From Prevotella fusca JCM 17724 (GTDB lineage Bacteria > Bacteroidota > Bacteroidia > Bacteroidales > Bacteroidaceae), in assembly GCF_001262015.1 (NCBI RefSeq), contig NZ_CP012074.1:82501-146500 (forward strand): 64,000 nucleotides of DNA, given 5' to 3'. This document shows positions 7,521-38,547 of this stretch, in pieces. The notes beneath the pieces are model-generated. The model saw nothing but the letters and a program-made list of their open reading frames with translations, did no database searches and was not told where the DNA came from. The stretch's first letter is position 1; each line of letters begins with the position of its first letter. The position numbers and the translations under genes are program-made.

Positions 7521-8064
7521 AAGGAGTGAAATGGAGTTAAGACAAATGTTCATCCATCTAATCTGTCATAGCATGGTTATTGGCAATACCACGGCAATAT
7601 GCATTGAGCAACTTACTTGCTTCTTCAATCTTATTGTGAAGCTGTTGATACTGCTCCATGTATATATATTCTAAATCTCGTGATAAGATAATATAGTCTC
7701 TACACTCCTCTGAACTTCCTTGTGCAATGTTCATAAAACGTAATTTATCTTGTCGCCCCAGTTTCTTATATTCTTCTGCTATGTCAGCTTCGATAGATAC
7801 GGCTGCTCTTCGGAACTGAGACGTTAGTCCAAACTTTTCCTCAGAAGGAAATAGTTTCGTTACTTTATATACACAAAGAACAAAGCTATGAGCTTTCTGC
7901 CATGCAATTATTTTTTCAAAACTATATGTTTGAGGATAGTAGAACATAAACTTTAATGCTTTTATTTTAGAGTATAATAGCTTGAGATGAGTTAGGAATT
8001 AAATTTGAAGTTGTTTTCTGATACTGTACAAAGCTGGTGTTGTCTTAACTCCATTTCACTCCTT
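7521..8064. mobile_element. Inverted-repeat-bounded cassette with four-helix-bundle gene
   Basis: A perfect 25 bp inverted repeat lies at 7521-7545 and 8040-8064 (outer end AAGGAGTGAAATGGAG, inner end TTAAGACAA). The 544 bp element contains one gene, transcribed with the surrounding mla genes, and sits in the mlaE-mlaF gap: 20 bp after the mlaE stop and 23 bp before the mlaF start. In RNA the arms would form a long stem with the gene in the loop, as in 23S rRNA intervening sequences. No transposase is present. Mobility is inferred from structure only. Confidence 0.7.
7558..7947 (-). CDS. Four-helix-bundle protein (23S rRNA intervening-sequence family)
   Basis: 129 residues. The family layout is clear: an N-terminal FEKIIAWQKAH helix start, the FPSEEKFGLTSQFRRAAVSI core, a variant of the usual SIPANIAEG box (SIEADIAEEYKK), and a C-terminal helix pair (SSEECRDYIILSRD...). 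Members are encoded in 23S rRNA intervening sequences and as stand-alone genes, and a relative (Avd) serves in diversity-generating retroelements; the molecular role of stand-alone copies is unclear. It is the only gene inside the inverted-repeat cassette. Confidence 0.9.
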   Translation of the reverse strand: MFYYPQTYSFEKIIAWQKAHSFVLCVYKVTKLFPSEEKFGLTSQFRRAAVSIEADIAEEYKKLGRQDKLRFMNIAQGSSEECRDYIILSRDLEYIYMEQYQQLHNKIEEASKLLNAYCRGIANNHAMTD

Positions 8065-8083
8065 GACTTCTTTAACTCCTTTG

Positions 8084-8830
8084 TTAACTCAACAACTGTG
8101 TGAGGAATACATCGCTGAAGAGAATTAGCACGCTTGAGCAGACTACTGCATCCGTGGAAGCCTTGCCCACTTCAACACTTCCGCCATTCACCGTATAGCC
8201 CATATATGAGGATACGCTTGAGATGATAAAGGCGAAGAAGAATCCCTTGATGATACTCATCCACATGAACCATGAGTTGAAGTCGTGCTGCAGTCCTGCG
8301 GTAAGGTCTATGGGGGTGATGATGTGTGCGATGTATGCCGTAGCGTATGCACCGACGATACCGGTTGCTGCCGAGAAGATGACAAGGAACGGCATAATGG
8401 TAATGAGTCCCAGTATTTTGGGGAGGATGAGGTAACTGGCAGAGTTGATACCCATAATCTCCAAGGCATCAATCTGTTGTGTCACGCGCATCGTTCCTAA
8501 CTCAGATGCAATGTTTGAACCCACCTTGCCCGACAGGATAAGACACATGATACTGCTGGAGAACTCCAGAAGCATAATCTCGCGTGTTACATAACCCGAT
8601 ACCCAATGCGGCATCCAGGGGCTCTGCACGTTGAGTTTTATCTGTATACATATAACGGCACCGATGAAGAAGGAGATGAGTAGGACGATGCCGATGGAAT
8701 CAACACCCAGCTGTGACATCTCCTTGATATAGCGTTTCAGGAACATCCTCATTCTCTCAGGGCGACTGAGTGATCGTCCCATCAGTATAAGATAATTGCC
8801 GAATGTGTTCAGCCACTTGAAGATAAGCAT
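8084..8830 (-). CDS. mlaE: Phospholipid transport permease (MlaE type)
   Basis: 248 residues with the ATG at 8830, chosen because a TAATTTTG promoter element lies at 8857-8864, which excludes an upstream ATG at 8944. The MlaE domain shows IVLLISFFIGAVICIQ, an EFSSSIMCLILSGKVGSNIASELGTM stretch (written here as two parts, the second starting SGKVGSN) and about five membrane segments. It is the inner-membrane permease of the lipid transporter whose ATPase gene is downstream beyond the cassette. An MlaD-like substrate-binding gene is not in the immediate neighbourhood. Confidence 0.93.
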   Translation of the reverse strand: MLIFKWLNTFGNYLILMGRSLSRPERMRMFLKRYIKEMSQLGVDSIGIVLLISFFIGAVICIQIKLNVQSPWMPHWVSGYVTREIMLLEFSSSIMCLILSGKVGSNIASELGTMRVTQQIDALEIMGINSASYLILPKILGLITIMPFLVIFSAATGIVGAYATAYIAHIITPIDLTAGLQHDFNSWFMWMSIIKGFFFAFIISSVSSYMGYTVNGGSVEVGKASTDAVVCSSVLILFSDVFLTQLLS

Positions 8831-8856
8831 GATCTTTCTGTTTGGTTTTAAAGTTG

Positions 8857-8864
8857 CAAAATTA
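8857..8864 (-). promoter_or_regulatory. Promoter -7 element for mlaE
   Basis: TAATTTTG on the minus strand matches TAnnTTTG, about 27 bp upstream of the chosen ATG. Confidence 0.6.
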
Positions 8865-8944
8865 ACCAAAATATCACAGAAAGCGGAAAGAAAGACATTA
8901 TTTAATAAAATCTTTCCTTTTGCTCTGAAAGGTAAAGTGCCCAT

Positions 8945-9313
8945 ACGTTTAGTGCACTAAGTGTTTCCTCTTTCTCTATGTTGATGGATAGTTTCTGAAA
9001 CAAACCGGCATATTGTGGCAATAAATTATGAACTGCAGCTTGTTCAATTGTTGTAATAACAAAAATGTAGCAGATACTTATGGGGGCATTAATAGGATTA
9101 TTTGATGTCTGATGTTAATTTAACAGCTTTTTATTTGTATAAGTTTTAAAAAAGTATTAATATTGCAGACAAATCACTTATATGTTATGTTGTGATTGCA
9201 TTTTTACAGAGTCTGGTAGAAGATAAAAGCATATCGAACATATTGTTTGTGTTCGGCAGATAAATTAAATAACTTCTTTCCCTTAACGGGGGAAGCCTAA
9301 CTAACAAAAGCGT
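8945..9313. other. Divergent intergenic region
   Basis: It separates mlaE from the T9SS-tagged gene. It holds the promoter at 9134-9165, a small hairpin CGAACA/TGTTCG (about 9235-9255) and a CTTTCCC/GGGGGAAG hairpin just before the next start. No gene is seen. Confidence 0.6.
9134..9165 (+). promoter_or_regulatory. Promoter for the T9SS-tagged surface protein gene
   Basis: TTTG at 9134-9137, a 20 bp spacer, then TAATATTG at 9158-9165 (one mismatch to TAnnTTTG). This implies a 5' leader of about 140 nt with two small hairpins. Confidence 0.6.
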
Positions 9314-10660
9314 ATGATGAAAAATTTACTTGTTTCAGCTTTGTTTCTAAGTTGTGTGAAACTTGTTTCGGCTCAGACTATTCCAAGTGAGCGTGTTGTT
9401 CTCAGTATAGCGCCTAATGCTACTGATGTTTCTTTTGTGGTTCGTACGGATGCAAATGCCCCTTTGGTCTGCAATTTTGGAGAGAATGAGGGGATCAAGA
9501 CTTTCAATGCGGCAACGGATGGCAGCCTGACGAAGGTTGAATATACCTTTGTATATGCTTCCCCGAATGAGCGGACTATAGAAGTGGCTGCTGATAAGTT
9601 AGTTACTTTGCGTATTGTGCAGAAGAAACAGGTCAATGGGGTGTTGGAGGTGAAGTCTTCGGTACTACAGAACCTGAATGTTGATTATGTGGACTTGGTT
9701 AAGCATAACAAGGTTGACGTGACGCAGTGTCCTAACCTGGAAGTCCTCACTTTGACTTTTACTGGTGTGGAAGAGATAGTCCTGCCTAAGAGTGATATGT
9801 TGAAGTCCGTGCAGGCTTCACCAACAATTCTGGGTCAGGGGTCACTGAAAAAGGTTAATAACTGGGATGCGCCAAATCTTACCCAGATAGGTTTCGTGGG
9901 TGCTTCTATTGACACATTAGATGTGAGAAACAATACTCATCTGACGTCACTCATCTGTTCTTTACCAGCAAAGAACAAGGGGCTTCGTGGTATCAAGGGT
10001 GCCAAGAAGCTGAAGGAGCTGACGATGCTTGATGTTCGGGGAAACAACTTGGCTTTTGACCAGATTCCTGACCGATATGTTGTGGATGCACCACTGGAGG
10101 ATTTCAGGTATTCATCGCAGGGCTCTTATCTCGTTCCAAAGAGCAAGATGGATGGTCTTAGTGTCGATTTGTCCGACCTGTTCTTTACTCGTGGTATCTC
10201 TACGGTGCGTGAGAAGACGGAGTTCGTATGGAAGTATAAGGCGAATGAAACAGCTGCTTATCAGCCTGTTCCTGCTGATATGATGACAAGCGAGTCTGGC
10301 AAGTTTACTTTTGATGCCAGTCTTTCGGAGGACGAAGTTCTGCGTGTGTACTGTACGATGCGTAATGGTGGCTATCCTGGTATTGGTGTGAAGGGAAAGA
10401 ACACCATCAGTACTTATATGCTCAAGCTCGATAAGACCGCTGCAGGTATTTCTGGTGTGACGGCAAATGCGTCTTCGTTTGTTGTTTCTGCTACGGATAC
10501 AGGTTGTCGTATCGAGTCGTCCAAGCCTCAGAAAGCTACTGTCTATGGTATTGATGGCAAGATTGTTTGGTTGGGTCAAGTACCAGCATTGGTTGACTTG
10601 GAGCGTGGTATATATGTCGTTCGTTCAGAATCAGGTGATTATATGAAGCTGATGCGATAG
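9314..10660 (+). CDS. Secreted protein with LRR-like region and T9SS C-terminal domain
   Basis: 448 residues. The signal peptide KNLLVSALFLSCVKLVSA probably ends near residue 20. Residues about 130-270 contain spaced LxxLxL / LDVRNNTHLTSL / LDVRGNNL repeats like a short leucine-rich-repeat region. The last ~75 residues (ATVYGIDGKIVWLG ... GIYVVRSESGDYMKLMR) fit a type IX secretion sorting domain of type A. It is therefore predicted to be exported across the outer membrane by the Por system and anchored or released. It is monocistronic and followed by a terminator. Confidence 0.8.
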   Translation: MMKNLLVSALFLSCVKLVSAQTIPSERVVLSIAPNATDVSFVVRTDANAPLVCNFGENEGIKTFNAATDGSLTKVEYTFVYASPNERTIEVAADKLVTLRIVQKKQVNGVLEVKSSVLQNLNVDYVDLVKHNKVDVTQCPNLEVLTLTFTGVEEIVLPKSDMLKSVQASPTILGQGSLKKVNNWDAPNLTQIGFVGASIDTLDVRNNTHLTSLICSLPAKNKGLRGIKGAKKLKELTMLDVRGNNLAFDQIPDRYVVDAPLEDFRYSSQGSYLVPKSKMDGLSVDLSDLFFTRGISTVREKTEFVWKYKANETAAYQPVPADMMTSESGKFTFDASLSEDEVLRVYCTMRNGGYPGIGVKGKNTISTYMLKLDKTAAGISGVTANASSFVVSATDTGCRIESSKPQKATVYGIDGKIVWLGQVPALVDLERGIYVVRSESGDYMKLMR

Positions 10661-10693
10661 GTTGAGGGAGAAAGTCGTCACTTATAAAAATAT

Positions 10694-10725
10694 AAACAGC
10701 AGGGTGGGATACCATTCTGCTGTTT
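10694..10725 (+). terminator. Intrinsic terminator
   Basis: A perfect 9 bp stem AAACAGCAG / CTGCTGTTT with a 14-base loop and a T-rich tail, 33 bp after the T9SS-tagged gene. Confidence 0.75.
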
Positions 10726-10799
10726 GTCGTTTTAGTGATATTTTCGTGTATTTGCGGAGTATTTAACCTCTTACTGACAGCTATCTGCTTTTTATTTCG

Positions 10800-10807
10800 T
10801 AATTTTG
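10800..10807 (+). promoter_or_regulatory. Promoter -7 element for lptB
   Basis: TAATTTTG matches TAnnTTTG. It overlaps a possible TTG start at 10805, which argues for a downstream start of lptB. Confidence 0.6.
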
Positions 10808-10897
10808 CAGCGATTGTGGAGATGGTATCAGGTGATGACGGGACGAGAGCGTCGGAGCCTTTTTCTGTTCCCTATGGTTTCAGTAAAGTTCATTATC

Positions 10898-11776
10898 ATG
10901 CTGGATTTGCAAAAAGAGAAAGATAACGCAGAGTTTGATAAGATTGTTGTACGCCCCGAAGGCGAGGGGAGCATCCTCCGCACGGACAGATTGGTGAAAC
11001 GGTACGGAAAGCGTACGGTTGCCAATGGTGTGAGCATCAATGTCAAACAGGGAGAAATCGTGGGACTGCTCGGACCGAATGGTGCGGGCAAGACGACATC
11101 GTTCTATATGACGACTGGTCTGGTCGTTCCGAACGAGGGACATGTATATATTGACGACCAGGAGATTACCAACTTCCCAGTCTACAAACGTGCCCGTGCC
11201 GGCATCGGCTATCTTCCGCAGGAGGCGAGTGTCTTCCGCAAGATGAGTGTGGAGGATAATATCATGAGCGTGCTGGAGATGACGAAGCTGTCGAAGCAGG
11301 AACGTATCGACAAGATGGAAAGTCTTATCCGCGAGTTCCGACTGGAGAAGGTGCGCAAGAACCTCGGTGACCGTCTTTCCGGTGGTGAGCGTCGCCGTTG
11401 CGAGATAGCCCGTTGCCTGGCTATCGACCCGAAATTCATCATGCTCGATGAACCGTTTGCAGGTGTCGACCCTATTGCCGTTGAGGATATTCAGCACATC
11501 GTATGGCGTTTGAAGTTCCGTAATATCGGTATTCTCATCACCGACCATAATGTACACGAGACGCTGAACATCACCGACCGTGCCTATCTTCTCTTCGAGG
11601 GGCGCATCCTCTTCAAGGGTACGCCAGAGGAACTGGCTGCCAACAAGATTGTTAAGGAGAAGTACCTCGGTACAGACTTCGTCCTGCAGAAGAAAGACTT
11701 TCAGCTGCTCGACCAGCGTAAACGGGCGCAGGAGGATACCTTGGAGGTTGCTGCTCCGCAGGAAAAGTTCTTGTAG
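10898..11776 (+). CDS. lptB: LPS export ABC transporter ATPase LptB
   Basis: 292 residues with the ATG at 10898 ([13 protein letters not shown]). In-frame starts at 10835 and 10874 are possible; the TTG at 10805 is unlikely because it overlaps the promoter. The LptB hallmarks are [15 protein letters not shown], Walker A GPNGAGKT (59-66), [18 protein letters not shown], the signature [16 protein letters not shown] and Walker [14 protein letters not shown]. It powers lipopolysaccharide extraction from the inner membrane. The C-terminal extension after about residue 250 is polar and lineage-specific. Confidence 0.93.
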
Positions 11777-12075
11777 TCGTGTTCTTGTCATGCAGAAAGC
11801 ACCGTGTGTAGCGAATTATTTTCATGGTAAGAAAGAATTATTTTCATGAAGAAAAATATTTCTTTTCGTGAAGAAAAATATTTCTTTTCATGAAAATAAT
11901 TCGGCAATGATACCTTTCTTTCATCCTATAACGTCCCGGAAAAGAAGCCTGCTTGTGGTAAAACTCTGCATAAGAATCGGCTGTAAGCAGGCTTGTTAGT
12001 TCTTGTGCCCCAGGTTATCTTGGTTAAAAAAACAAATTTCCACTTATATATTATAAGGTTATGCGATTTTTTAAG
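11777..12075. repeat. Palindromic repeat and hairpin upstream of tig
   Basis: 11813-11902 is bounded by a perfect 14 bp inverted repeat GAATTATTTTCATG / CATGAAAATAATTC and filled with AAGAAAAATATTTCTTTT-like palindromes; a related copy is at 33374-33462. A perfect 10 bp stem AAGCCTGCTT / AAGCAGGCTT (11946-11995) may terminate lptB transcription. No gene is seen. Confidence 0.7.
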
Positions 12076-12083
12076 TACCTTTG
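12076..12083 (+). promoter_or_regulatory. Promoter -7 element for tig
   Basis: TACCTTTG is an exact TAnnTTTG match. The leader to the tig ATG is about 85 nt. Confidence 0.65.
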
Positions 12084-12171
12084 CACTCCAAAGACCGCAA
12101 GGGGGTGGTGTGCCTTCTTGTGAATCTATGCTTTTGATAAATAATAATAAACATAATATATAACATCAAAG

Positions 12172-13539
12172 ATGAAAATTTCATTTGAGAATCCCGACAA
12201 AGTGAACGGTTTGATGACCATCACTGTTGAGGAAGCTGATTACAAGGATGAGGTTGAGAAAACCCTCAAGGATTATCGCAAGCGTGCCAATGTTCCTGGT
12301 TTCCGTCAGGGTCAGGTGCCTATGGGACTGATTAAGCGTCAGTATGGTCCACAGGTGAAGATGGATGCTATCAATAAGATTCTTGGTGAGAACCTCCAGA
12401 AATATATTGCTGACAACAAGATTCAGATGCTGGGTCAGCCAATGGGTTCTGAGTCTCAGGAAGCTGTTGACTTGGAGAAGCCAGCTCCTTACGAGTTCAA
12501 GTTTGATATTGCTGTAGCTCCAGAGTTCAAGATTGAACTGAACGGAAAGAATAAGATTGACTACTACGAGATTGCAGTTGACGACAAACTGATTGACCAG
12601 CAGGTGGAGATGTTCCAGAGTCGTGCAGGTCGCTATGACAAGGCGGAGTCTTTCGACCCAGAGCAGCGTGATATGCTGAAGGGTGACCTCCGTGAGTTGG
12701 ATGAGAATGGAAACACACTCGAGGGTGGTATCACCGTTGAGGGTGCATCATTGATGCCACAGTATATCAAGGTTGAAGACCAGAAGAAGCTCTTTGATGG
12801 TGCTAAGACTGGTGACATCATCACTTTCAACCCGACAGCAGCTTACCCGGACAATGATATCGAGGTTTCTTCACTCTTGAAGATCAAGAAAGAGGAAGTT
12901 GCAGAGCACAAGGGTAACTTCTCTTATCAGATTACTGAGATTTCACGCTTCGTAAAGGCTGAGAACAATGCTGAACTTTGGAAGGGTGTTTACGGTGAGG
13001 ACGCTGACATCAAGGATGAAGCTGCTTTCCGCAAGACTATTGCTGACGGATTGACAGCACAGTTGAAGGGTGATTCTGACTATAAGTTTGTTCAGGACCT
13101 CCGTGCTTACTGCGAGAAGAAAGTAGGCGAGCTGACATTCCCGGATGCTATCCTGAAGCGCATTATGCTGGCTAACAACCAGGATAAGGGCGAGGAGTTT
13201 GTAGAGAAGAACTACGCTCAGAGCATTAAGGAGCTGACATGGCACCTGATTAAGGAGCAGTTGGCTAAGGACAACAACATCAAGGTTGAAGACGACGATG
13301 TTCGTGAGAGTGCTCGTCAGATGGCTCGTGCACAGTTCGCTCAGTATGGTATGACCAATATTCCAGAGGACTATCTGAATGGTTATGCTGATGAGATGCT
13401 GAAGAAGCGTGAGAATATTGACTCATTCGTTGAGGCTGCTCTTGACCGTAAGATCGCTGCTGCCATCAAGGAGGTAGTTAAGCTGAACGTTAAGACTGTA
13501 AGTCTTGAAGAGTTCAATAAACTCGTAAGCGAGCAATAA
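12172..13539 (+). CDS. tig: Trigger factor
   Basis: Ribosome-associated chaperone, 455 residues. The N-terminal ribosome-binding domain has the exit-tunnel signature near residue 43 (VPGFRQGQVPMGLIKRQYG). The middle region is divergent and lacks a recognisable FKBP active site, as in other Bacteroidota homologues. The long helical C-terminal domain forms the chaperone arms. It is upstream of clpP and clpX in the conserved tig-clpP-clpX order, but clpP has its own promoter. Confidence 0.95.
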   Translation: MKISFENPDKVNGLMTITVEEADYKDEVEKTLKDYRKRANVPGFRQGQVPMGLIKRQYGPQVKMDAINKILGENLQKYIADNKIQMLGQPMGSESQEAVDLEKPAPYEFKFDIAVAPEFKIELNGKNKIDYYEIAVDDKLIDQQVEMFQSRAGRYDKAESFDPEQRDMLKGDLRELDENGNTLEGGITVEGASLMPQYIKVEDQKKLFDGAKTGDIITFNPTAAYPDNDIEVSSLLKIKKEEVAEHKGNFSYQITEISRFVKAENNAELWKGVYGEDADIKDEAAFRKTIADGLTAQLKGDSDYKFVQDLRAYCEKKVGELTFPDAILKRIMLANNQDKGEEFVEKNYAQSIKELTWHLIKEQLAKDNNIKVEDDDVRESARQMARAQFAQYGMTNIPEDYLNGYADEMLKKRENIDSFVEAALDRKIAAAIKEVVKLNVKTVSLEEFNKLVSEQ

Positions 13540-13588
13540 ATTTAAGAAAAATCTTCCTTTATATATAGAGGTTATCGATTTTTTTGCT

Positions 13589-13596
13589 TATCTTTG
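13589..13596 (+). promoter_or_regulatory. Promoter -7 element for clpP
   Basis: TATCTTTG is an exact TAnnTTTG match, giving a leader of about 112 nt that contains a terminator-like hairpin. Confidence 0.6.
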
Positions 13597-13661
13597 CTTT
13601 AGATATGCTGGCTGGTGTCGCTCTGAGTGGCATGGTGTTTGCATAGATGGCAATGATAGGA

Positions 13662-13686
13662 GAGGTCGATAGCCTCTATTTTTTGT
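13662..13686 (+). promoter_or_regulatory. Terminator-like hairpin in the clpP leader
   Basis: AGAGG / CCTCT stem with a short loop, followed by ATTTTTTG, about 30 nt upstream of the clpP start. It may be an attenuator or a stabilising leader hairpin. Confidence 0.4.
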
Positions 13687-13714
13687 CACAATAAATCATA
13701 TAGAAAGGAAAACA

Positions 13715-14407
13715 ATGAACGATTTTAGAAGGTATGCCACAGGGCATCTTGGGATGAGTGGTATGGTGCTTGATGATGTCATAAAGGCACAGGCGCAGTA
13801 TCTGAACCCATATATCCTTGAGGAGCGTCAGCTGAATGTGACCCAGATGGACGTGTTTTCACGTCTGATGATGGAACGAATCATCTTCCTCGGCACACAG
13901 GTGGATGATTATTCAGCCAATACTATTCAGGCACAGCTTCTTTACCTGGATTCTGTTGACCCGGGTAAGGATATATCTATTTATATTAACTCTCCTGGCG
14001 GAAGTGTCACGGCGGGTCTGGGTATCTATGATACCATGCAGTTTATCTCCAGTGACGTTGCTACACTCTGTACAGGTATGGCTGCCTCAATGGCTGCCGT
14101 ATTGCTCGTTGCAGGTCAGGAAGGCAAACGTTCTGCCCTGAAGCACAGTCGTGTTATGATTCATCAGCCGCTCGGTGGTGTGCAGGGTCAGGCGTCTGAT
14201 ATTGAGATTGAAGCACGGGAGATACAGAAGTTCAAGAAGGAACTCTATACCATCATCAGCGAGCACTCTCATCAGCCATTTGAGAAGGTGTGGAACGACA
14301 GTGACCGTAACTACTGGATGACGTCCGCAGAGGCTAAGGAGTACGGTATGATTGATGAGGTCCTGATGAGGAAACCAGTAAGTAACGCTTCAGAAGAAGT
14401 AAAGTAA
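13715..14407 (+). CDS. clpP: ATP-dependent Clp protease proteolytic subunit
   Basis: Serine protease, 230 residues. The catalytic triad is Ser125 (GMAASMAA), His150 (RVMIHQPLGG) and Asp197 (NDSDRNYWM). SPGGSVTAG forms the oxyanion region. It forms the tetradecameric chamber fed by ClpX, which is encoded 10 bp downstream. The N-terminus (about 30 residues before NPYILEERQL) is longer than in E. coli and may include a propeptide, as is usual in Bacteroidota. Confidence 0.97.
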   Translation: MNDFRRYATGHLGMSGMVLDDVIKAQAQYLNPYILEERQLNVTQMDVFSRLMMERIIFLGTQVDDYSANTIQAQLLYLDSVDPGKDISIYINSPGGSVTAGLGIYDTMQFISSDVATLCTGMAASMAAVLLVAGQEGKRSALKHSRVMIHQPLGGVQGQASDIEIEAREIQKFKKELYTIISEHSHQPFEKVWNDSDRNYWMTSAEAKEYGMIDEVLMRKPVSNASEEVK

Positions 14408-14417
14408 AGGATAGATA

Positions 14418-15656
14418 ATGCCCCAGAAGAAATGTAGTTTTTGTGGTCGGGGTGAGAAGGAAGTAAAGCTCCTTATCACTGGCTTGAACGGCTATATCTG
14501 TGAGGAATGTGCACAGCAGGCTTACAATATCGTCATGCAGACAGGTGCGTTAGCGCAGTCGCAGAATGGCAATGATGAGGCTTTTAAGCTCAAGAAAGTT
14601 CCTAAGCCAAAGGAAATCAAGAAGTATCTTGATGAGTATATCATTGGTCAGGACGAGGCGAAACGTTATCTTGCTGTAGCTGTTTACAACCATTACAAGC
14701 GTTTGCAACAGCCTAAGGATGATGACGGTGTTGAGATAGAGAAGAGCAATATCATCATGGTAGGTTCTACAGGTACGGGTAAGACATTGCTCGCCCGCAC
14801 CATAGCAAAGCTCCTTGATGTGCCCTTTACCATTGTTGATGCGACCGTATTCACTGAAGCCGGATACGTAGGTGAGGATGTGGAGAGCATTCTCTCACGC
14901 CTGTTGCAGGTTGCCAATTATGACGTTCCTGCCGCCGAGCGTGGTATTGTCTTCATCGATGAGATTGACAAGATTGCACGCAAGAGCGACAATCCGAGTA
15001 TCACCCGTGATGTTAGCGGTGAGGGTGTACAGCAGGGTTTGCTGAAACTCCTTGAGGGAACGATGGTGAACGTGCCGCCAAAGGGTGGACGTAAGCATCC
15101 TGACCAGGATTATATACATGTTGATACCCGCAATATTCTCTTTATCTGTGGTGGTGCCTTTGACGGTATCGAACGTAAGATAGCACAGCGACTCAATACA
15201 CATACGGTTGGTTACAACTCTGTGCAGAACGTTGCCAAGATAGATAAGACAGACTTGATGAAGTATGTCCTGCCGCAGGACTTGAAGTCGTTTGGTCTCA
15301 TTCCTGAGATTATCGGACGTCTGCCGGTACTTACTTATCTTAATCCGCTTGACCGTGAGGCATTGCGTAAGATTCTTGTTGAACCCAGAAACTCCATCGT
15401 AAAGCAGTATATCAAGCTGTTCAGCATGGACGGAATTACGCTCAGCTTCACGGAATCTGCTCTTGACTATATCGTAGACAAGGCTGTCGAGTATAAACTC
15501 GGAGCCCGTGGCTTGCGCTCTATTGTTGAGGCTGTGATGATGGATGCCATGTTCGATGTGCCGTCACGACGCATCAAGTCGTTTGAGGTGACGGAAGAAT
15601 ACGTCCGTCAGCAACTTGATAAGGCTCATATTCAGAAATCGAATAAAGTCTCATAA
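14418..15656 (+). CDS. clpX: ATP-dependent Clp protease ATPase subunit ClpX
   Basis: AAA+ unfoldase, 412 residues. The N-terminal zinc finger uses Cys6, Cys9, Cys28 and Cys31. Walker A is GSTGTGKT (116-123), Walker B is [11 protein letters not shown], sensor and pore elements are present (GYVGEDVES; the RKHPDQDYI loop), and IGRLPV begins the C-terminal subdomain. It delivers substrates to ClpP. A hairpin (arms AGCCTGCTGAAG / CTTCAGTGGGCT, 10 of 12 paired) lies about 15 bp after the stop and may end the transcript. Confidence 0.97.
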
Positions 15657-30526: not shown

Positions 30527-30557
30527 GATAAGTATAGTCAAGATATTTCTCAAATGC

Positions 30558-30594
30558 AAGTAGGGATACACGGTCGTGTATCCCTACTTTTTGT
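30558..30594 (+). terminator. Intrinsic terminator after the OmpA-family gene
   Basis: A near-perfect palindrome, AAGTAGGGATACACG / CGTGTATCCCTACTT, directly followed by TTTTG. Confidence 0.9.
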
Positions 30595-30599
30595 TATGA

Positions 30600-30655
30600 T
30601 GATAGGACCAATTGGGCTTATTAGGCTAATTGGTCTAATAAGTCCAATACCAGTT
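30600..30655. repeat. TTATTAG-type palindromic repeat
   Basis: CCAATTGGGCTTATTAGGC and the partner CTAATTGGTCTAATAAGTCC form an imperfect palindrome of the family also at 2764, 29143 and 37225. Confidence 0.6.
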
Positions 30656-30700
30656 CTTTTATCATTGCCCCTTTGTGTTCCCCATCGTGTAAACAATGGT

Positions 30701-32524
30701 TTAAAACCCTTCTGCTGCGTGGTAAGACGAACGGACAAGCGGACCGCTCACCACGTGCTTGAAGCCCTTGTCTAATGCAATCTGCTTGTATTCGGCAAAC
30801 TGTTCGGGTGTGATATAAGCCTTGACAGGCAGATGATGGGCTGTAGGCTGGAGATACTGACCGAGTGTGAGGCGTCGGCAGCCTGTTGCGAGGATGTCGT
30901 CCATAGTCTCTAAGATTTCCTCGTGTGTCTCACCCAAGCCGAGCATGAAGCCTGTCTTGGCAGTGATGCCACAGTTCGTAATCTCTCGCAGCACGTCTAA
31001 ACTACGTTCATAGCGTGCCACAGAACGCACGGATGGTGTGAGGCGACGCACCGTTTCCATATTATGTCCTGCCACATGCGGATGTGTTGCCATCACCTGG
31101 CGTATGAGTTCCGCCTGTCCCATGAAGTCGGGGATGAGCAGTTCAATCTTTGTGTCGGGATTCAACCGTCGTACTTCCTCAATGGTCTTTATCCAGTGGG
31201 CAGCACCATAGTCGGGCAGGTCGTCACGGTCAACGGAGGTAATGACGGCATAACGCAGTCCGAGTGCCTTGATCGACTCTGCCACATGGCGTGGCTCGTC
31301 GGGATTGAGCTGTCTGGGTTTGCCGCTCAAAGTATTGCAGAAGCGGCACTTACGGGTACATATCTCACCACCGATCATCAATGTTGCCGTGCGAGCCATC
31401 CAACATTCCGAGCGGTTCGGACAGAGTCCGCTCGTGCAGATGGTGTTCAGATGATGCTTGGCAAGGATGCCTGCCGTCTCACCTGTCGACTTCTTCGATG
31501 TGAGGTCTATCTTCAGCCACTCCGGCTTCATTACGTGCGGTTCACGTCCGAAGAGCAGACGGAGGAACTGCCGTAGCGTCAGACCACGTATGATGGTTGA
31601 CAAGTCCAGTTCCTGCAGCGTTTCGCCTACAGCTTCCCGTGTGAACTCACAGCCCTTGAGTAGTGCAAGGAAATCGTGGTCGATGTCGCCAAGAAGAAAG
31701 TAGTCGCCCACCATATTGATGCTCCCGATGATGTTGTTCTTCAGTTCCACATGTGCCTCGAGTGTTCCGACACCTTCAAAGCGATGTTTCCGTACAATGG
31801 AATATTTCGGATTCTTCCCATAGACGAACTCATAGGAAGCCAGTTCTTTCTCAATCTCAGCCACCTCTTTCATGTCTTCTTCGGTCAGCTTCAGCACGTC
31901 CTCACCGCACATCTCCCGTCTTACATGGTCCATGAAGTCCGTTATGTTCAGCTGTGTGTAGGTTGCAACGTTTGTAACACGCTGTCTGATAGATGCCACC
32001 CCCTTGCTCTGCAGTTTCTCCTTTGCTGGAGTGAGTGCATTGGAGAGGTGGTCGAGCTGGGTGTCGAAGAGCAGGGAGTTATGCAGCACGCTTCGGTTGG
32101 GAAGCTGATAGAAAGCGCAGCCCGACACCTTTGTGTTGTCGATAAGAATATCATTACGTCCCGACAGCTGTGCATCAATATTCAGTCCTTGCAACATTCC
32201 CGCCATCCGTTGCATGTATTGCGCAAAGGCTTCATTGGCATTGACGGCGCACGAGATATAGGAGAACTGTATGCAACCCTTGTCGGCATAGATACATCCG
32301 CCGCCGCTTTTCCGTCTGAAAATATCTATCTTGTGTTCCTTGCAATAGTCTGTGTTGACCTCATTGTCAATCAGTTGGTTGCGCCCCAGCATTACCGTAG
32401 GGTTCACACGCCAACCCACAAAGTAGTCGTCATCGGTGTAATGACGTGCCACGTATTCTTCCACTGCAAAGTAGAAGGGCAGTTGATGAATGGTATCTGG
32501 TTTTGGCAGTAGTATATATTTCAT
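30701..32524 (-). CDS. lipA: Fused lipoate-protein ligase A / lipoyl synthase
   Basis: 607 residues with two complete enzymes in one frame. Residues 1-330 are a lipoate-protein ligase: RRKSGGGCIY (70-79), GRNDILIDNTKVSG (122-135, catalytic Lys132) and an accessory C-terminal domain. Residues 335-607 are lipoyl synthase: the auxiliary cluster Cys363/368/374 (CTSGLCPNRSECW), the radical-SAM CxxxCxxC at Cys389/393/396 (CTRKCRFC) and the terminal RSSYHA motif. The protein could both attach lipoate or octanoate and insert the two sulfurs. No frameshift is needed. It is monocistronic with its own promoter. Confidence 0.95.
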   Translation of the reverse strand: MKYILLPKPDTIHQLPFYFAVEEYVARHYTDDDYFVGWRVNPTVMLGRNQLIDNEVNTDYCKEHKIDIFRRKSGGGCIYADKGCIQFSYISCAVNANEAFAQYMQRMAGMLQGLNIDAQLSGRNDILIDNTKVSGCAFYQLPNRSVLHNSLLFDTQLDHLSNALTPAKEKLQSKGVASIRQRVTNVATYTQLNITDFMDHVRREMCGEDVLKLTEEDMKEVAEIEKELASYEFVYGKNPKYSIVRKHRFEGVGTLEAHVELKNNIIGSINMVGDYFLLGDIDHDFLALLKGCEFTREAVGETLQELDLSTIIRGLTLRQFLRLLFGREPHVMKPEWLKIDLTSKKSTGETAGILAKHHLNTICTSGLCPNRSECWMARTATLMIGGEICTRKCRFCNTLSGKPRQLNPDEPRHVAESIKALGLRYAVITSVDRDDLPDYGAAHWIKTIEEVRRLNPDTKIELLIPDFMGQAELIRQVMATHPHVAGHNMETVRRLTPSVRSVARYERSLDVLREITNCGITAKTGFMLGLGETHEEILETMDDILATGCRRLTLGQYLQPTAHHLPVKAYITPEQFAEYKQIALDKGFKHVVSGPLVRSSYHAAEGF

Positions 32525-32550
32525 CGTTGGTATTGATTGTTTTATGGGAA

Positions 32551-32558
32551 CAAATGTA
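32551..32558 (-). promoter_or_regulatory. Promoter -7 element for the lplA-lipA fusion
   Basis: TACATTTG on the minus strand, an exact TAnnTTTG match 27 bp before the ATG. Confidence 0.6.
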
Positions 32559-32765
32559 CAAATAAAATAATTAAAGAGAGAATAGAAAGTGAGGAAAATA
32601 GTGGAAAGTGGTTGTTAGGGCAATAAGGCAATTTAGTCTTATTGGGTTAATCGTTATCCCTTTTGAATGCGAGAGGAACTGAGAATGTTCTCTTTTTCCC
32701 TTTTTATGTTATGCCGTCTGGGTAGTTGGATAAGGAGAGTGACATTTTAGCCATGTCCACCCGTT

Positions 32766-33231
32766 ACTATGCCTTTCCGTCTTCTATAAACAACTTGTTC
32801 TCATGTCAATCGTCTTTTGTAAACTATTTTCATCTAACTCAAAGCGGATACATGCTCTTTTGGCTTCTAAAAGACGCCCAATTGGCTTGCAAAAGATGCC
32901 CTTTTGAGGTCTAACTAACGCCCTTTTGAAGTCCAATTAAGCACCTTTTCTTGTGCAGCTCCATAACCAACTGATTTACTGCTGGTTGCAAACTTGCTTT
33001 TTACACGTGTTTTCACCTTTGTTTGTAGATAGTTTGTCCGAGATTATGTCATGATTTTTCAATTCATTGTCTGCGATTTTCAAAGTGTTAAAATGAAAAG
33101 GTTTTCTGTGTCGGAGGATGATAACAGAATAGACAGCCAAGACTGTCTTGGTTATTATTTTGTATAATGCATAACTTCGGTTCTTTTGCTAAAACTATGC
33201 GAAAAGTGTCCACGCATTTAACGGAAGAACC
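32766..33231 (+). repeat. Long non-coding repeat, copy A
   Basis: About 466 bp, similar end to end to 54104-54575. Shared blocks include TTTCCGTCTTCTA, GACGCCCAATTGGCTTGCAA, GTCCAATTAAGCACCTTTTC, AAAAGGTTTTCTG, an AGCCAAGA/TCTTGG hairpin and GTGTCCACGCATTTAACGG. The 3' end is closed by stem 33179-33187 / 33223-33231 (GGTTCTTTT / GGAAGAACC). A 62-codon frame inside it is not conserved and is not called. The strand is arbitrary. Confidence 0.8.
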
Positions 33232-33373
33232 ATTTTAGGGGTGGCTTGTTATAAGAAGAATAAGTAGGAAAAGTTTTCTTTCCCCTTTTTCAAAAGGCTT
33301 TTCATGTTGCCTGTTTCATATTTGTAGTCTGCTGATACGTTGCGTGTTACGTATTTCAGTTGTACACTCCTGC

Positions 33374-33462
33374 GAATTATTTTCATGAAAAGAAATATTT
33401 TCTTTCATGAAGAAAAATATTTATTTACGTGAAAAGAAATAATTATTTACGTGAAGAGAATT
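33374..33462. repeat. GAATTATTTTCATG-type palindromic repeat
   Basis: Begins with GAATTATTTTCATG and repeats ATGAAGAAAAATATTT and ACGTGAA units, like the copy at 11813-11902. The rest of the 33232-33866 gap shows no gene; a CCCCTCCC / GGGAGGGG hairpin lies at about 33833-33851. Confidence 0.6.
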
Positions 33463-33831
33463 TCACAAAGCACGTAATCATACGTAGTTTTGATGTTACG
33501 TTGATGAGTTGGCAAGCTGGAATTAATATGGTATTTATAGTGTTATTTGATGGAAAAAGTGAAAAAGAGACAAAGTTCAAGATAAGTTCAATATAAAAAC
33601 TTTTGCCATTGAATAGATAATCACTACCTTTACAAATAAAATCATGTCACGAGTCATTTATCTTCCAGAATGCCTTTAATTGGAGAACGAATCAAGGATG
33701 GGAATTATAGTAACAGAAGTTTTTCCCATAAGGTCTATTTTACCTTTTTCAATATTGCTTATTACTGCAACATCTAAATAGAGGATATGTCTTATTGCAT
33801 CCCACTCCTCAGCTCTTTCGGTATCTGCTCC

Positions 33832-33852
33832 CCTCCCTTTGTGGGAGGGGCT
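33832..33852 (-). terminator. GC hairpin downstream of asd
   Basis: CCCCTCCC / GGGAGGGG stem 15-35 bp beyond the asd stop; the T-rich side is on the plus strand. It belongs to the CCCCTCC repeat family and may serve as a terminator. Confidence 0.45.
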
Positions 33853-33866
33853 GTCTTTCTTTTATC

Positions 33867-34880
33867 TTACTTCACATTCCCCACCTTAATCAGGTACTCT
33901 GCAATCTGCACAGCATTCAGTGCAGCACCCTTACGGATCTGGTCGCCAGTAAGCCAGAGTGTATTGCCGTTGTCATCGGCAAGGTCCTTGCGGATACGAC
34001 CCACATAGATGTCGTCGTGACCGGCACTCTCGAGCGGCATCGGGTAGACGTAGTTCTGCGGATCGTCAACGACGGTAACGCCTGGGGCAGCCTTCAATGC
34101 CTCACGGATTTCGTCAGCAGAGAGCGGGCGCTCGGTCTCGAACCATACGGTCTCAGAGTGGCTGCGGAGAGAAGAGACGCGGACGCAGGTGGCAGAAGTG
34201 CGGATGTCAGAGTGCATAATCTTACGTGTCTCGTTGAACATCTTTACCTCTTCCTTTGTATAGTCGTTTTCTGTCATTTTGTCAATCTGTGGAATGACAT
34301 TGTATGCCAACTGATGTGGGAACTTCTCGATAGTTTTCACCTCGCCTGTCTCAACAAGTTCCTTGTACTGCTGCTGCAGTTCTGCCATAGCGGCAGCACC
34401 TGCACCGGAAGCACTCTGGTAGCTGCTGACGTGCACCTTCTTGATATGGCTGAGTTTGTCGATAGGGTTCAGTACGACAACCATCATGATTGTTGTACAG
34501 TTTGGGTTGGCAATGATGCCACGTGGACGGTTCAAGGCATCGTCTGCATTGATTTCCGGGACAACCAATGGCACGTCATCATCCTGACGGAACTGGCTGG
34601 AATTGTCAATCATGACAGCACCGTACTTGGTGATGGTCTCAGCAAACTCAGCTGATGTTCCGCCGCCAGCACTGGTAAAGGCAATATCAACATCCTTGAA
34701 GTCATCGTTATGCTGGAGCAGTTTTACCTCGTATTCCTTACCCTTGAATGTATATTTCTTACCTGCAGAACGCTCAGAACCAAAGAGAACAAGCTCATCC
34801 AACGGGAAGTTTCTTTCATCTAAGATGCGCAGGAACTCCTGCCCTACAGCACCACTGGCACCAACAATTGCTACTTTCAT
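33867..34880 (-). CDS. asd: Aspartate-semialdehyde dehydrogenase
   Basis: 337 residues. It reduces aspartyl phosphate to the semialdehyde for lysine/diaminopimelate, threonine and methionine synthesis. The NADP-binding [10 protein letters not shown] is at residues 5-14, the catalytic Cys lies in ANPNCTT (about residue 131), and a catalytic His lies in [10 protein letters not shown]. It is monocistronic with a good promoter on the minus strand. Confidence 0.96.
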
Positions 34881-34920
34881 ATCTTTTATCTTTAATTGTT
34901 TACTAACCTATTCGTAGTTG

Positions 34921-34951
34921 CAAATTTACTATTTTTCCGCAACACAGACAA
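34921..34951 (-). promoter_or_regulatory. Promoter of asd
   Basis: Minus strand: TTGT (34948-34951), a 19 bp spacer, TAAATTTG (34921-34928). Confidence 0.65.
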
Positions 34952-35077
34952 CAGGATGTCACTCTTTTTCTGTTTCCATGGTTATGATTCATGATGAAGC
35001 CGTTGTTTTCTGCCATTCAGTGATGACGTCAGAACTTATTAGGCAGTTAATGTTAGGAGGTTGCCAAAGTTTTTTCG

Positions 35078-35085
35078 TAACTTTG
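35078..35085 (+). promoter_or_regulatory. Promoter -7 element for the antiporter
   Basis: TAACTTTG is an exact TAnnTTTG match 24 bp before the ATG at 35110. Confidence 0.6.
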
Positions 35086-35109
35086 CAAGCAGTAATTTTA
35101 TAGACACTC

Positions 35110-37227
35110 ATGCTGAATTTATCTGAATATTTCCCGATAACTGACCCGACATTGATTTTCTTCGTTGTCCTGCTGATGATATTGCTTTCGCCTATCATCA
35201 TGGGACGGCTGCGCATTCCGCATATCATCGGTATGGTTTTGGCGGGTGTCATCGTAGGACAATACGGACTGAATATCCTTGGTCGTGATGCTTCATTTGA
35301 GCTTTTCGGGCGTGTCGGACTCTATTATATCATGTTCCTTGCTGGTCTGGAGATGGACATGGAGGGACTGAAGAAGAACCGTAACAGGATGGCAGTCTTC
35401 GGTATGCTGACCTTTTCAGTACCATTTATAATGACTTACTTCATGGGAGTCAGCCTGCTTGGCTATCTTCCGTTGGCATCGCTTCTGCTTTCGGCAATCA
35501 TGGCTTCTAATACCTTGATAGCTTATCCGATAGTGGGGCGGTATGGACTGACACGGCATACGAGTTCGACGCTGAGTGTGGGGTCGTCCATGATGGCACT
35601 CTTTATGGCGTTGATAGTCATGGCATCCATCGTCAACTCGTTTCATGGGAATGGCGGAATTGCTTTCTGGTTGCTGTTCATTGTGAAGTTCGTTGTTTAT
35701 TGTGTCGGTCTTATTATGGTGATTCCACGTGTGACACGCTGGTTCCTTCGTCGGTATTCTGATGCTGTGATGCAGTTTATCTTCATCCTTGCCGTGGTGT
35801 TCCTGTCGGCAGCCTTGTCGGATGCAGTAGGACTGGAAGGCATCTTCGGAGCGTTCATGTCCGGCTTGATACTGAACCGTTTTGTGCCAAAGGTGTCTCC
35901 GTTGATGAACCGCATAGAGTTTACAGGTAACGCACTCTTCATTCCTTACTTCCTTATCGGGGTGGGTATGCTGATTAATGTACGCCTGCTTTTTGAAGGA
36001 AGCAAGATTCTTTGGGTTGTGTTCTGTGTCGTTTTCTTCGGTACTTTGGGCAAGGCTGTGGCAGCTTACTTGGCTGCCCGCATCTTTCGTATGTCTTGGC
36101 TGTCAGGCCACATGATGTTCGGTCTGACCAGTGCCCATGCAGCCGGTGCCATTGCGATGGTGATGGTGGGGCGCAGACTGGAGGTTGCTCCGGGTGAATA
36201 CCTCTTTGGTGACGAGGTGTTGAATGGGGTTGTGATAATGATACTTTTCACCTGTGTCATCTCAACCGTCATAACCGAGCGGGCTGCACAGCGGCTTCGT
36301 TTGCAGGAAAAGGAAGAGCTGGACGTGACGAAGAACCTTGATGATGAGAAGATACTTATCCCTGTGAAGTACCCGGAGTATGCCGATAGTCTTGTTACGA
36401 TGGCTACCATGATGCGCAATCCCCGTTTAAAACGGGAGTTGGTGGCATTGAATGTGGTGTATGATGATGTGAATATGCGACATAATCAGGCTGAAGGACA
36501 GCGGTTGTTGGATCATCTTCAGCATCTGGCGAGTGCCTCTGATGTGCCGATGACCACACAGGTACGCATAGCAGCCAACATTGCCAATGGTATCAAACAT
36601 GCCTTCAAGGAGTTCCAGGCATCAGAGATATTGATGGGGTTGCACTTCCATAAGGAGATAAGCCGTAGCTTCTGGGGAGAGTTTACACGAAGCCTTTACA
36701 ATGGATTGAGCCGTCAGATAATCGTGACACGTATCATGCAGCCGTTGAATACAATCCGTCGGATACAGGTAGCTGTGCCTTCGCGTGCAGAGTTTGAGCC
36801 TGGGTTCTACCGTTGGTTAGAGCGACTGGCACGTATGGCAGGCAATCTGGAGTGTCGTATCACCTTTCACGGACGACAGGATACGCTGCAACTTGTCAAT
36901 GAGTTCATCCGCAATCGGTTCTCAAGTGTAAGGGCTGAGTATGAGGAAATGGAGCATTGGAAGGAGTTGCCCAAGCTCGCTACGAGGGTTCGTGAGGACC
37001 ATCTCTTTGTCATTGTGACTGCCCGTAAGGGGACAATATCCTATAAGAGTGCGATGGAACGGCTGCCCGAGGAGGTGAATAGGTGTTTTAAAGGCAAGAC
37101 GATTATGATTATCTTCCCCGATCAGTATGGTAACAGAATGGATGATATGACCTTCGCCCAGCCGCAGCATACCGAGGAGCGCAGCGCATACGAGGCTGTA
37201 AGAGAGTGGATTCATAATAAGGTATAA
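35110..37227 (+). CDS. CPA2-family cation:proton antiporter
   Basis: 705 residues. Residues 1-395 form about 12 membrane spans of the Na+/H+ exchanger fold ([65 protein letters not shown]). The soluble C-terminal ~300 residues resemble a universal-stress-protein-like domain (about 415-700) rather than an RCK/TrkA domain. It exchanges Na+ or K+ for H+ at the inner membrane; the ion is not predictable here. It is followed by a palindromic repeat and lolD. Confidence 0.92.
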
Positions 37228-37283
37228 GGGGGGTAGCCCAATTGGACTTGTTAGCCTAATTAGTCCAATAACCCCAATAAAAG
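37222..37283. repeat. TTATTAG-type palindromic repeat
   Basis: CCCAATTGGACTTGTTAGCC and its imperfect partner CTAATTAGTCCAATAACC, between the antiporter and lolD. Confidence 0.6.
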
Positions 37284-37291
37284 AACAGAAT

Positions 37292-37966
37292 ATGATTGAC
37301 ATTAAGAACATAACAAAAAGTTTCGGGTCGCTTCAAGTGCTGAAAGGCATTGATCTGCACATTGATAAAGGCGAAGTTGTCAGTATTGTCGGACCGTCCG
37401 GGGCTGGCAAGACCACCTTGTTGCAGATACTCGGAACGTTGGATAAGCCCGACGGTGGTTCTGTTGTTGTGGATGGCATTGACGTTGGTAGCTTGTCAGG
37501 AAGCAAGTTGAGCGACTTCCGCAACCAGCACCTGGGTTTTGTCTTTCAGTTCCATCAGTTGCTACCAGAGTTTACAGCTCTTGAGAATATCATGATTCCG
37601 GCTTATATAGCAGGCAGGAAGACCAAGGATGCACGTCAGCGTGCCGAGGAACTATTGGAGTTTATGGGCTTGAGCGACCGTGTCAACCACAAGCCTAATG
37701 AGCTTTCAGGCGGTGAGAAACAGCGTGTGGCAGTAGCTCGTGCGTTGGTAAATAATCCTGCTGTCATCCTTGCCGATGAGCCTTCGGGCAGTTTGGACTC
37801 AAAGAATAAGCAGGAACTTCACCAACTCTTCTTCGATCTCCGTGATAAGTTCGGTCAGACCTTCGTCATCGTTACACACGATGAAGGGCTTGCAAGTATC
37901 ACAGACAGAACGATACATCTTAAGGATGGCTTGATACAGAATGACATCAGTCAAGAGACAGAATGA
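37292..37966 (+). CDS. lolD: ABC transporter ATPase, LolD type
   Basis: 224 residues. Walker A is GPSGAGKT (34-41), the Q-loop is in [18 protein letters not shown], the signature is [15 protein letters not shown], and Walker B is [13 protein letters not shown]. [15 protein letters not shown] is the LolD hallmark within the MacB/LolD group, so it probably powers lipoprotein release for outer-membrane targeting. Its membrane partner (LolC/E) is not nearby. The cassette with the GxxExxY gene begins 10 bp after its stop. Confidence 0.9.
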
Positions 37967-38068
37967 TGTTTGTTGAAAGCCAGAATGACATAAAGACATA
38001 GTTTTTAATGACATATTCTTTATAGAGTATGTTTGTAGACGATAAACTTAATTATTACTATTCGCCTG

Positions 38069-38452
38069 ATGAATATAGAAGAGCTTATAAAGCTGATAAT
38101 CAATAAAGCCTATGAGGTTCGGAGCCATTTTGTAGCTGGGTATTTAGAGAGTGTTTATAAGAAAGCATTGCTAATAGAACTCAGAGAAGCTGGACTGAAA
38201 GTAGAAGAAGAGGTTGAGATGCCTGTGATATATAAAGGGCATGTAATAGGTGATTTTCGTGCAGATATTGTCGTGGAAAGATGTATCATTATAGAACTAA
38301 AAGCTGTTGCTCAGTTATTACCAGCACACGCAATTCAACTTGTAAACTATCTCTCTGTGTCAGGAATAGACAATGGACTGCTTATAAATTTTGGCTCGAC
38401 TGAACGGCTGGAGGTTAAGCGTAAGTATAGAGTCTATAATCCTCATGCCTAA
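38069..38452 (+). CDS. GxxExxY protein, PD-(D/E)XK nuclease superfamily
   Basis: 127 residues. The family motif GYLESVY (24-30) is followed by a PD-(D/E)XK-like core: Glu27, Asp66 (DFRADIVV) and the ELK motif Glu76-x-Lys78 (IIIELKAV). All expected metal-ligand positions are kept, so it could be an active nuclease, though the substrate is unknown for the family. It is the only gene in the inverted-repeat cassette and is followed 8 bp later by a GAAA-capped hairpin. Confidence 0.9.
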   Translation: MNIEELIKLIINKAYEVRSHFVAGYLESVYKKALLIELREAGLKVEEEVEMPVIYKGHVIGDFRADIVVERCIIIELKAVAQLLPAHAIQLVNYLSVSGIDNGLLINFGSTERLEVKRKYRVYNPHA

Positions 38453-38459
38453 AAGGTAA

Positions 38460-38477
38460 ATCGAGCGAAAGCTCGAT
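38460..38477 (+). other. GNRA-capped hairpin after the GxxExxY gene
   Basis: A perfect 7 bp stem ATCGAGC / GCTCGAT with a GAAA tetraloop, between the stop codon and the right inverted repeat. It has no T-run, so it is more likely a structural RNA element than a terminator. Confidence 0.55.
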
Positions 38478-38547
38478 AAGAAAATATGTCATTGAAAGAA
38501 TATGTCTTTATGTCATTCTGGCTTCAGACAATTTAAATATAGAATAT

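Follow-up and report, generated by a model that had tools for sequence, protein, structure and literature searches.

The closest described counterparts of the elements reported here are the intervening sequences (IVSs) of bacterial 23S rRNA genes. The Coxiella IVS is described in PMC4990558 as a 428-nt insertion with a 28-bp stem, a sense open reading frame (ORF) for an S23p protein and GACAGAT heptamers, which is excised by RNase III. A second point of reference is provided by REPINs, hairpins formed by paired repetitive extragenic palindromic sequences and the closest parallel to the ORF-less copies described below (Bertels and Rainey 2011, PMC3116915). We analyzed a 64,000-nt stretch of the Prevotella fusca JCM 17724 genome (contig NZ_CP012074.1, positions 82,501 to 146,500; denoted the window), which contains two single-gene cassettes bounded by inverted-repeat arms. 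Cassette 1 encodes a four-helix-bundle protein of the IVP family, cassette 2 a GxxExxY protein. We put the probability at roughly 0.7 that each cassette belongs to its own family of a single kind of minimal mobile element, the two families running in parallel. Elements of this kind would be mostly 450-600 bp long and carry a single ORF between complementary arms, and would occupy short intercistronic spacers, with the ORF in the sense direction.

The perfect arms of cassette 1, which reads on the minus strand, are 25 nt long and span 544 bp; those of cassette 2, on the plus strand, are 24 nt long and span 548 bp (Table 1). They are nested in longer arms of 32 nt (94% identity) and 37 nt (86%), respectively. 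The perfect-arm ends are separated from the neighbouring genes by 19 and 23 nt in cassette 1 and by 10 and 23 nt in cassette 2. An earlier note on this DNA had described two cassettes of about 545 bp, each with one short gene, perfect arms of 24-25 nt and co-directional neighbours within 10-23 bp, and had found the arms of the two cassettes to be dissimilar to each other; all of this was borne out. The predicted RNA folds of both cassettes were better than those of 100 out of 100 shuffled sequences (z -4.97 for cassette 1 and -7.77 for cassette 2).

The comparison with 23S IVSs, which like the ORF-less copies goes beyond the earlier note, revealed a match. Cassette 1 contains an ORF of the same protein family and is of similar size, and both cassettes are closed by a terminal stem, as seen in their perfect arms and fold scores (25 nt in cassette 1, compared with 28 bp in Coxiella). 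Short tandem repeats are present near the 5′ end. As judged from gene order, the ORFs of both cassettes would be sense within the host transcript. There are also differences. The cassettes lie between protein genes, and no rRNA was found in the window by an Rfam scan at gathering thresholds; the host RNA would be an operon mRNA, many junctions are used, ORF-less copies exist and a second, unrelated protein occurs, PF13366 being the sole family matched by the cassette 2 ORF. Insertions in the rRNA genes of candidate phyla radiation bacteria are described in PMC11270868 as largely intron-like.

To establish how often such genes are enclosed by arms, we turned to the genus, of which the collection holds more than 150 genomes. 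IVP matches were present in 87 of 100 genomes (in 80 of them above the family cut-off; between 0 and 15 matches per genome) and GxxExxY matches in 66 of 100. The 165 family hits corresponded to 156 distinct genes, three of which were removed because their flanks were too short, leaving 153 usable genes (81 IVP and 72 GxxExxY). For each gene, 600 nt of upstream sequence was aligned to the reverse complement of 600 nt of downstream sequence with no limit on span, and certain arm pairs are more than 1 kb apart. Arms scoring at least 30 enclosed 62 of the 81 IVP genes and 60 of the 72 GxxExxY genes, compared with 28 of 435 neighbouring ORFs taken as controls (Fisher p-values of 7e-41 and 8e-44, respectively). 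Several of the 28 control positives adjoin an element and carry that element's arm type. For the 101 best elements, the median span was 526 bp (IVP) and 545 bp (GxxExxY), with median arms of 39.5 and 38 nt. Across the Bacteroidota, where the 30 best loci per family were considered, arms were found at 15/30 IVP genes, 22/32 GxxExxY genes and 7/71 controls. Both sets are enriched for high scorers (30 best loci per search) and supplemented by 80 hand-picked regions, and the arm-score thresholds (30, 34 or 36, depending on the analysis) were our own choice. Two of the 81 IVP genes sit on one viral contig (L206); in viral sequences, searched for close relatives of the two proteins only, IVP was seen on one contig and GxxExxY on none, and phage records, which were searched for IVP only, contained none.

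The reverse question, which genes are found between arms, was addressed by scanning 864 kb, consisting of 400 kb of a second genome (G094), 400 kb of the P. fusca genome (3.26 Mb in two contigs) and the window. We required inverted arms with a score of at least 34 outside long ORFs, and an enclosed ORF filling at least 40% of the interval. Among 39 arm pairs, ten pairs at eight loci passed, and all eight loci, both window cassettes included, carry genes of the two families (4 IVP and 4 GxxExxY). A mirror-repeat control yielded three pairs, none of which passed. The same 864 kb contains 276 non-overlapping ORFs of 80-250 aa, only 11 of them from the two families (Fisher p 2e-13), and no third cargo family was present among the arm-enclosed loci at 40% fill. 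Family matches had guided the choice of the stretches from G094 and of three of the 20 from the own genome, which affects sensitivity and, to a lesser degree, specificity. The shared cassette design of the two families is not due to chance. The genome-wide scan proposed in the earlier note is thereby answered as far as enrichment is concerned, over part of the genome, and its view of one class of stem-bounded single-gene elements is well supported. A window ORF at 46774-47319 has no Pfam match and an arm pair that narrowly fails the 40% rule; it is surrounded by a hairpin at 46391-46479 and an inverted copy at 47927-47949 (AGAGTGATAGGAATGACAGCAAA).

Orientation and position within operons were similarly uniform. 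Both neighbours are known for 145 genes. Co-directional genes flank 118 of these, with the ORF sense in 114 and antisense in four (p 5e-29); as background, 404 of 536 consecutive ORF pairs at the same loci were co-directional. The 5′ arm started a median of 6 nt (IVP, n=51) or 10 nt (GxxExxY, n=44) past the upstream stop codon, sometimes overlapping it. Both observations fit the location in polycistronic RNAs suggested in the earlier note. A fixed sense orientation would also be expected of ordinary operon genes with a host function, whose hairpins would serve as attenuators, terminators or mRNA-stability elements, and the persistence of certain insertions at one junction across species points in the same direction. 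However, gene and arms together are found at many unrelated junctions, 81 of the 153 genes being alone at theirs, the arms go with the gene, presence in the genus is sporadic with cassette-free sites, and copies without an ORF exist. We therefore consider a host function quite unlikely as an explanation.

A view of arms and gene as a unit is provided by two related elements, L022 and L187, whose proteins are 80% identical and whose flanks are unrelated. Their DNA homology begins at the 5′ arm or 6 nt inside it and ends 9-15 nt beyond the 3′ arm. In further pairs of relatives whose junctions are unrelated, the arms are likewise alike. These alignments show, at the level of sequence, that the arms go with the gene and that close relatives at unrelated junctions can keep them alike. 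They bear on the possibility that the arms derive from the target, the ORF having inserted into the loop of a pre-existing hairpin in the manner of tetraloop replacement in 23S helices. The presence of ORF-less hairpins with like arms in intergenic spacers would agree with such an origin; the retention of like arms at unrelated junctions, and the ability of arms to predict the cargo (see below), make it unlikely.

The remaining 72 of the 153 genes are distributed over 20 junctions, each occupied by at least two members of the set; examples are frdA-frdB (10 genes), korA-korB (8) and pta-ackA (5), and mlaE-mlaF is split between two clusters (junction gene names are our reading of the flanking proteins). 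On trees based on about 130 columns, same-junction proteins clustered, requiring 14 changes for IVP (minimum 12, shuffled mean 30.3) and 10 for GxxExxY (minimum 8, shuffled mean 18.7), and we therefore take many insertions to be old, with some moves. For 108 same-junction pairs, the 5′ arms of the two elements matched each other with a median score of 18, compared with 38 for the arms within an element, a relation that held in 100 of the 108. At one junction, arms are thus very different from species to species, while their complementarity is kept. A conserved terminal sequence among copies, as is characteristic of classical terminal-inverted-repeat transposons and miniature inverted-repeat transposable elements (MITEs), was not found in these pairs. 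A non-autonomous, MITE-like DNA transposon, moved in trans by the transposase of an unrelated insertion sequence (IS) with the ORF as passenger, would account for inverted terminal arms, the lack of a transposase inside and ORF-less derivatives. It would leave unexplained the variable arms, the restriction to two cargo families in the 864-kb scan and the 114:4 sense bias; moreover, a search of two genomes, confined to Y1 transposases and extending neither to other families of transposase nor to IS ends, gave no match. We regard such a transposon as distinctly improbable.

In their repeat structure the arms are family-specific. IVP arms were periodic in 43 of 54 cases (p<0.01 compared with shuffles), with a best period of 7 or 8 nt in 35 of 54; GxxExxY arms were periodic in 21 of 47 by the same measure, most often with a period of 9 nt (24 of 47). 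Arm sequence predicted the cargo for 95.6% of 113 elements under cross-validation by junction. Transfer to other families was correct in 28 of 34 cases, which is suggestive only, as at least one of 200 label-permuted trainings did as well on these 34 arms (85%). Because arms predict cargo, the two families are best regarded as parallel and not as one chassis with swappable cargo, and the interchangeable cargo proposed in the earlier note is not upheld.

Sites lacking the cassette, which the earlier note had asked for, were found at both window junctions. Among 30 mla loci, the IVP cassette is present in the own genome and in L086, L072 retains a solitary 3′-arm remnant, 25 loci have spacers of 2-181 nt and two could not be resolved by the script; by coordinates, an IVP gene adjoins mlaE in four further genomes (G001, G008, G058 and G089). 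At the lolD-cvfB junction, where several loci had no detected lolD end, cassettes are present in the own genome, L097 and L099, spacers of 23-45 nt are found in L102-L106, and spacers of 96 and 107 nt in L098 and L100 may contain a hairpin remnant. Certain insertions are thus common to several species at one junction and missing from other relatives. Palindromes of the type CTCCCCTCC..GGAGGGGAG, which occur at 56454-56695 of the window, also fill the mla spacer of L067-L070, the site of cassette 1 in the window.

Hairpins with matching arms and no ORF were identified by sequence in both genomes examined. With one mismatch allowed, a 13-nt piece of the cassette 1 arm matched the own genome at 14 places (two of them cassette 1 itself; reversed-pattern control, 3), and three inverted pairs of this type, 46-86 bp apart, enclose no gene (L429, L431 and L465). 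For a 17-nt piece of the cassette 2 arm, there were 12 matches at up to two mismatches (two being cassette 2; control, 2) and one gene-less inverted pair, 100 bp apart (L436). Solitary arms are found right after a stop codon (L432, L467) or right before a start codon (L426, L430). Short-spacer hairpins numbered 30 in 464 kb of the own genome and 25 in 400 kb of G094 (mirror control 1 in each); 16 of the latter, selected by eye, have tandem-repeat arms. In G094, the conserved core of one hairpin type (about 117 bp) had 18 matches (control 0); elsewhere in 150 genomes it had a single match, in G067, where such arms are lacking. Sixteen of the 18 core-bearing hairpins have complementary arms (score 41-65), with three arm types on one core, and copies of one recent G094 hairpin family have like arms. 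The arms enclosing L462, an IVP element of G094, correspond up to and including the inner edge to the arms of one such hairpin; other ORF-less hairpins are matched by the arms of GxxExxY elements in that genome. A further dispersed palindrome family, CGAATTATTTTCATGAAGAAAAAT-like, is represented at 11812-11903 of the window and at L287, L295, L297, L300 and L301, and is thus present several times in the sample from the own genome.

In systems of REPINs and their associated RAYT transposases, one genome contains both a gene between inverted repeats and dispersed ORF-less hairpins that have like arms, an arrangement seen here in two genomes. Unlike in REPIN-RAYT systems, neither the P. fusca genome (G000) nor G094 contains a match to the Y1/HUH transposase family PF01797; moreover, the arms are often degenerate tandem repeats that vary between copies and species, and the ORF-bearing copies are strongly sense within operons.

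Several observations weigh against two parallel families of mobile elements. The homology edges of the other related pairs are less clean than those of L022/L187. Neither a target-site duplication nor a strain-level insertion was seen, the cassette-free sites being at species-level distance, and current movement was not evident in any comparison made here. Arms scored below threshold in 31 of the 153 genus-set genes and, phylum-wide, at 15/30 IVP and 10/32 GxxExxY genes. Among 17 ORFs enclosed by arms at 110 loci fetched with TAACTGA repeats (score 36, spacing at most 1800), 16 belonged to neither family, so that enclosure by arms lacks specificity in genomes rich in this repeat. Arm mismatches displayed no bias towards G-U pairs in the sense RNA (76 sense, 106 antisense, 294 transversions), and for GxxExxY alone the difference was in the wrong direction (23 sense, 48 antisense; p 0.004). 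Wobble asymmetry as a sign of selection for an RNA stem was therefore rejected; the arms may owe their maintenance to more than pairing in RNA, and hairpin DNA is an equal candidate. Finally, the arms of G094 hairpins matched only slightly better within copies than between them (27.1 and 25.7 of 31; 107 of 20000 permutations as high), and without L452 the values were 27.0 and 26.4 (1322 of 20000). Concerted evolution of both arms in recent copies is thus weak and not significant without that locus.

Relatives of the cassette 1 protein in the PDB, 2gsc and 2rld, have five chains each, and 2gsc is described as a homopentamer. The GxxExxY proteins retain G..E..Y and the PD-(D/E)XK active-site motif D..E-x-K invariantly across 16 aligned sequences (D63, E73 and K75 in first-row numbering), and because of this conservation GxxExxY may well be an active nuclease. 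Its predicted fold model is of low confidence (pLDDT 57), and by sequence its best PDB match was no lower than E 0.46. Among the 120 matches listed for the cassette 2 protein, the nearest named relatives are from Prevotella scopos, P. histicola and P. jejuni.

Weak profile matches also relate the cassette 1 protein to Avd and bAvd, the four-helix-bundle accessory proteins of diversity-generating retroelements (DGRs), from which the cassettes differ in lacking a reverse transcriptase (RT). This relationship raises the possibility of an RNA-mediated retroelement, in which IVP recruits a cellular RT that copies the element RNA into new spacers. The 114:4 orientation would suit such a process, and PF05635 is said to resemble Avd in PMC10053308, where it is also reported as the commonest Pfam family in DGR-context data. 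With no RT encoded in the cassettes and GxxExxY left unexplained, we judge an RNA-mediated origin improbable.

For the two parallel element families, a working mechanism can be outlined. The host operon mRNA would provide ORF expression, and the arms may form an RNA stem that isolates the ORF, by analogy with the RNase III-cut stems of 23S IVSs; the neighbouring genes would therefore stay translatable. The encoded protein may recognise the arms of its own element, perhaps as a ring in the case of IVP and as a nuclease on hairpin DNA in that of GxxExxY, and might act on ORF-less copies too. Speculatively, a five-subunit IVP ring, a repeat of about 8 nt and arms of about 40 nt would suggest a ring bound to the repeats. 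IVP cassettes are best viewed as intervening sequences of the 23S type in mRNA spacers, and GxxExxY cassettes as an independent solution of the same design with an unrelated, nuclease-like protein. More tentatively, and at somewhat less than even odds, we propose a transposase-free, operon-borne class in which a ring-forming four-helix bundle and a PD-(D/E)XK nuclease, each dedicated to its own repeat stem arms, mobilise ORF-bearing and REPIN-like ORF-less copies, with 23S IVSs as the rRNA-borne branch.

Outside the Bacteroidota sets, 30 plasmid records of other bacteria were listed or counted (8 GxxExxY and 22 IVP). Nine loci in these were inspected, six of which have similar arms. In Sphingomonas, a GxxExxY gene with 32-nt arms lies between fabD and fabG; the GxxExxY gene has perfect 32-nt arms in Gemmatirosa and 11-nt arms in Treponema, and IVP genes with arms are present in Nostoc and Azospirillum records. 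A Fusobacteria and a P. nigrescens plasmid have no clear arms around the GxxExxY gene; at the Fusobacteria locus (L307), direct rather than inverted repeats containing AATCCGTG flank it. In Picosynechococcus (L313) and Pseudanabaena (L315), the gene orders are cas10-IVP-cmr3 and cas6-IVP-cas4, similar to the cmr example among the IVP genes in cas loci reported in PMC3936711; a figure legend in PMC10910872 also names IVP in cas loci, and a GxxExxY gene near an RT is reported in PMC8934634. Because arms (17 nt at L313, long arrays at L315) surround these two IVP genes, we suggest that they are elements inserted into these operons and do not belong to the CRISPR machinery. Two further arrangements were noted: two GxxExxY genes 495 bp apart from start to start, with like flanks, represent a unit tandem duplication (L051/L149, G086:C68), and a second IVP gene in the own genome (L002/L300, C1:1465315) is followed by a long degenerate array instead of a compact 3′ arm.

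The TAACTGA repeats described in PMC4679880 resemble the arms in forming heptamer arrays right upstream of start codons, some inside operons. They differ in that a single locus (L389) of 80 tested brackets an IVP gene with them as arms, and a general link was rejected (1/80 loci; 2/92 sites; 0/66 sites lying 900 nt or more from a contig end). Among the papers listed by searches of the open-access literature, which left subscription papers and preprints outside, we recognised no description of IVP and GxxExxY as one element class. The window also contains an engA cis-regulatory RNA motif at 2830-2930 (Rfam RF02972, E 9e-19).

Table 1. Window coordinates of the two cassettes, their host genes and an ORF-less hairpin.
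Feature	Position	Strand	Remarks
5′ arm, cassette 1	8040..8071 (perfect part 8040-8064)	-	begins 12 nt past mlaE stop
3′ arm, cassette 1	7514..7545 (perfect part 7521-7545)	-	stops 16 nt short of mlaF-like start
Cassette 1 ORF, 129 aa, IVP / four-helix-bundle protein	7558..7947	-	PF05635 (23S_rRNA_IVP) E 3.6e-35; TIGR02436
Upstream host gene of cassette 1, mlaE-type permease	8084..8944	-	PF02405 E 1.9e-62
Downstream host gene of cassette 1, ABC ATPase (mlaF-like)	6727..7497	-	PF00005
5′ arm, cassette 2	37970..38006 (perfect part 37977-38000)	+	begins 3 nt past lolD stop
Inner continuation of cassette 2 5′ arm	38003..38027	+	pairing partner ~38472-38497
3′ arm, cassette 2	38495..38531 (perfect part 38501-38524)	+	stops 16 nt short of cvfB-like start
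Cassette 2 ORF, 127 aa, GxxExxY protein	38069..38452	+	TIGR04256; PF13366 (PD-(D/E)XK superfamily) E 3.4e-37
Upstream host gene of cassette 2, lolD-type ATPase	37292..37966	+	profile matches
Downstream host gene of cassette 2, S1 / CvfB-type protein	38548..39405	+	PF13509 and PF17783
ORF-less hairpin, GxxExxY-type arms, possible decayed element	47470..47802		outer arms 47470-47497 / 47775-47802, 28 nt, 86%

According to PMC4990558, more than 25 years after 23S IVSs were discovered their function and mobility remained unclear. If mRNA spacers, too, harbour IVP elements, together with a second family and hairpins, this puzzle becomes testable in Bacteroidota. The same reading could recast IVP and GxxExxY genes beside CRISPR and RT genes as operon hitchhiking, which calls for caution in guilt-by-association annotation. 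It also points to a second way, independent of a transposase, in which REPIN-like intergenic hairpins could originate.

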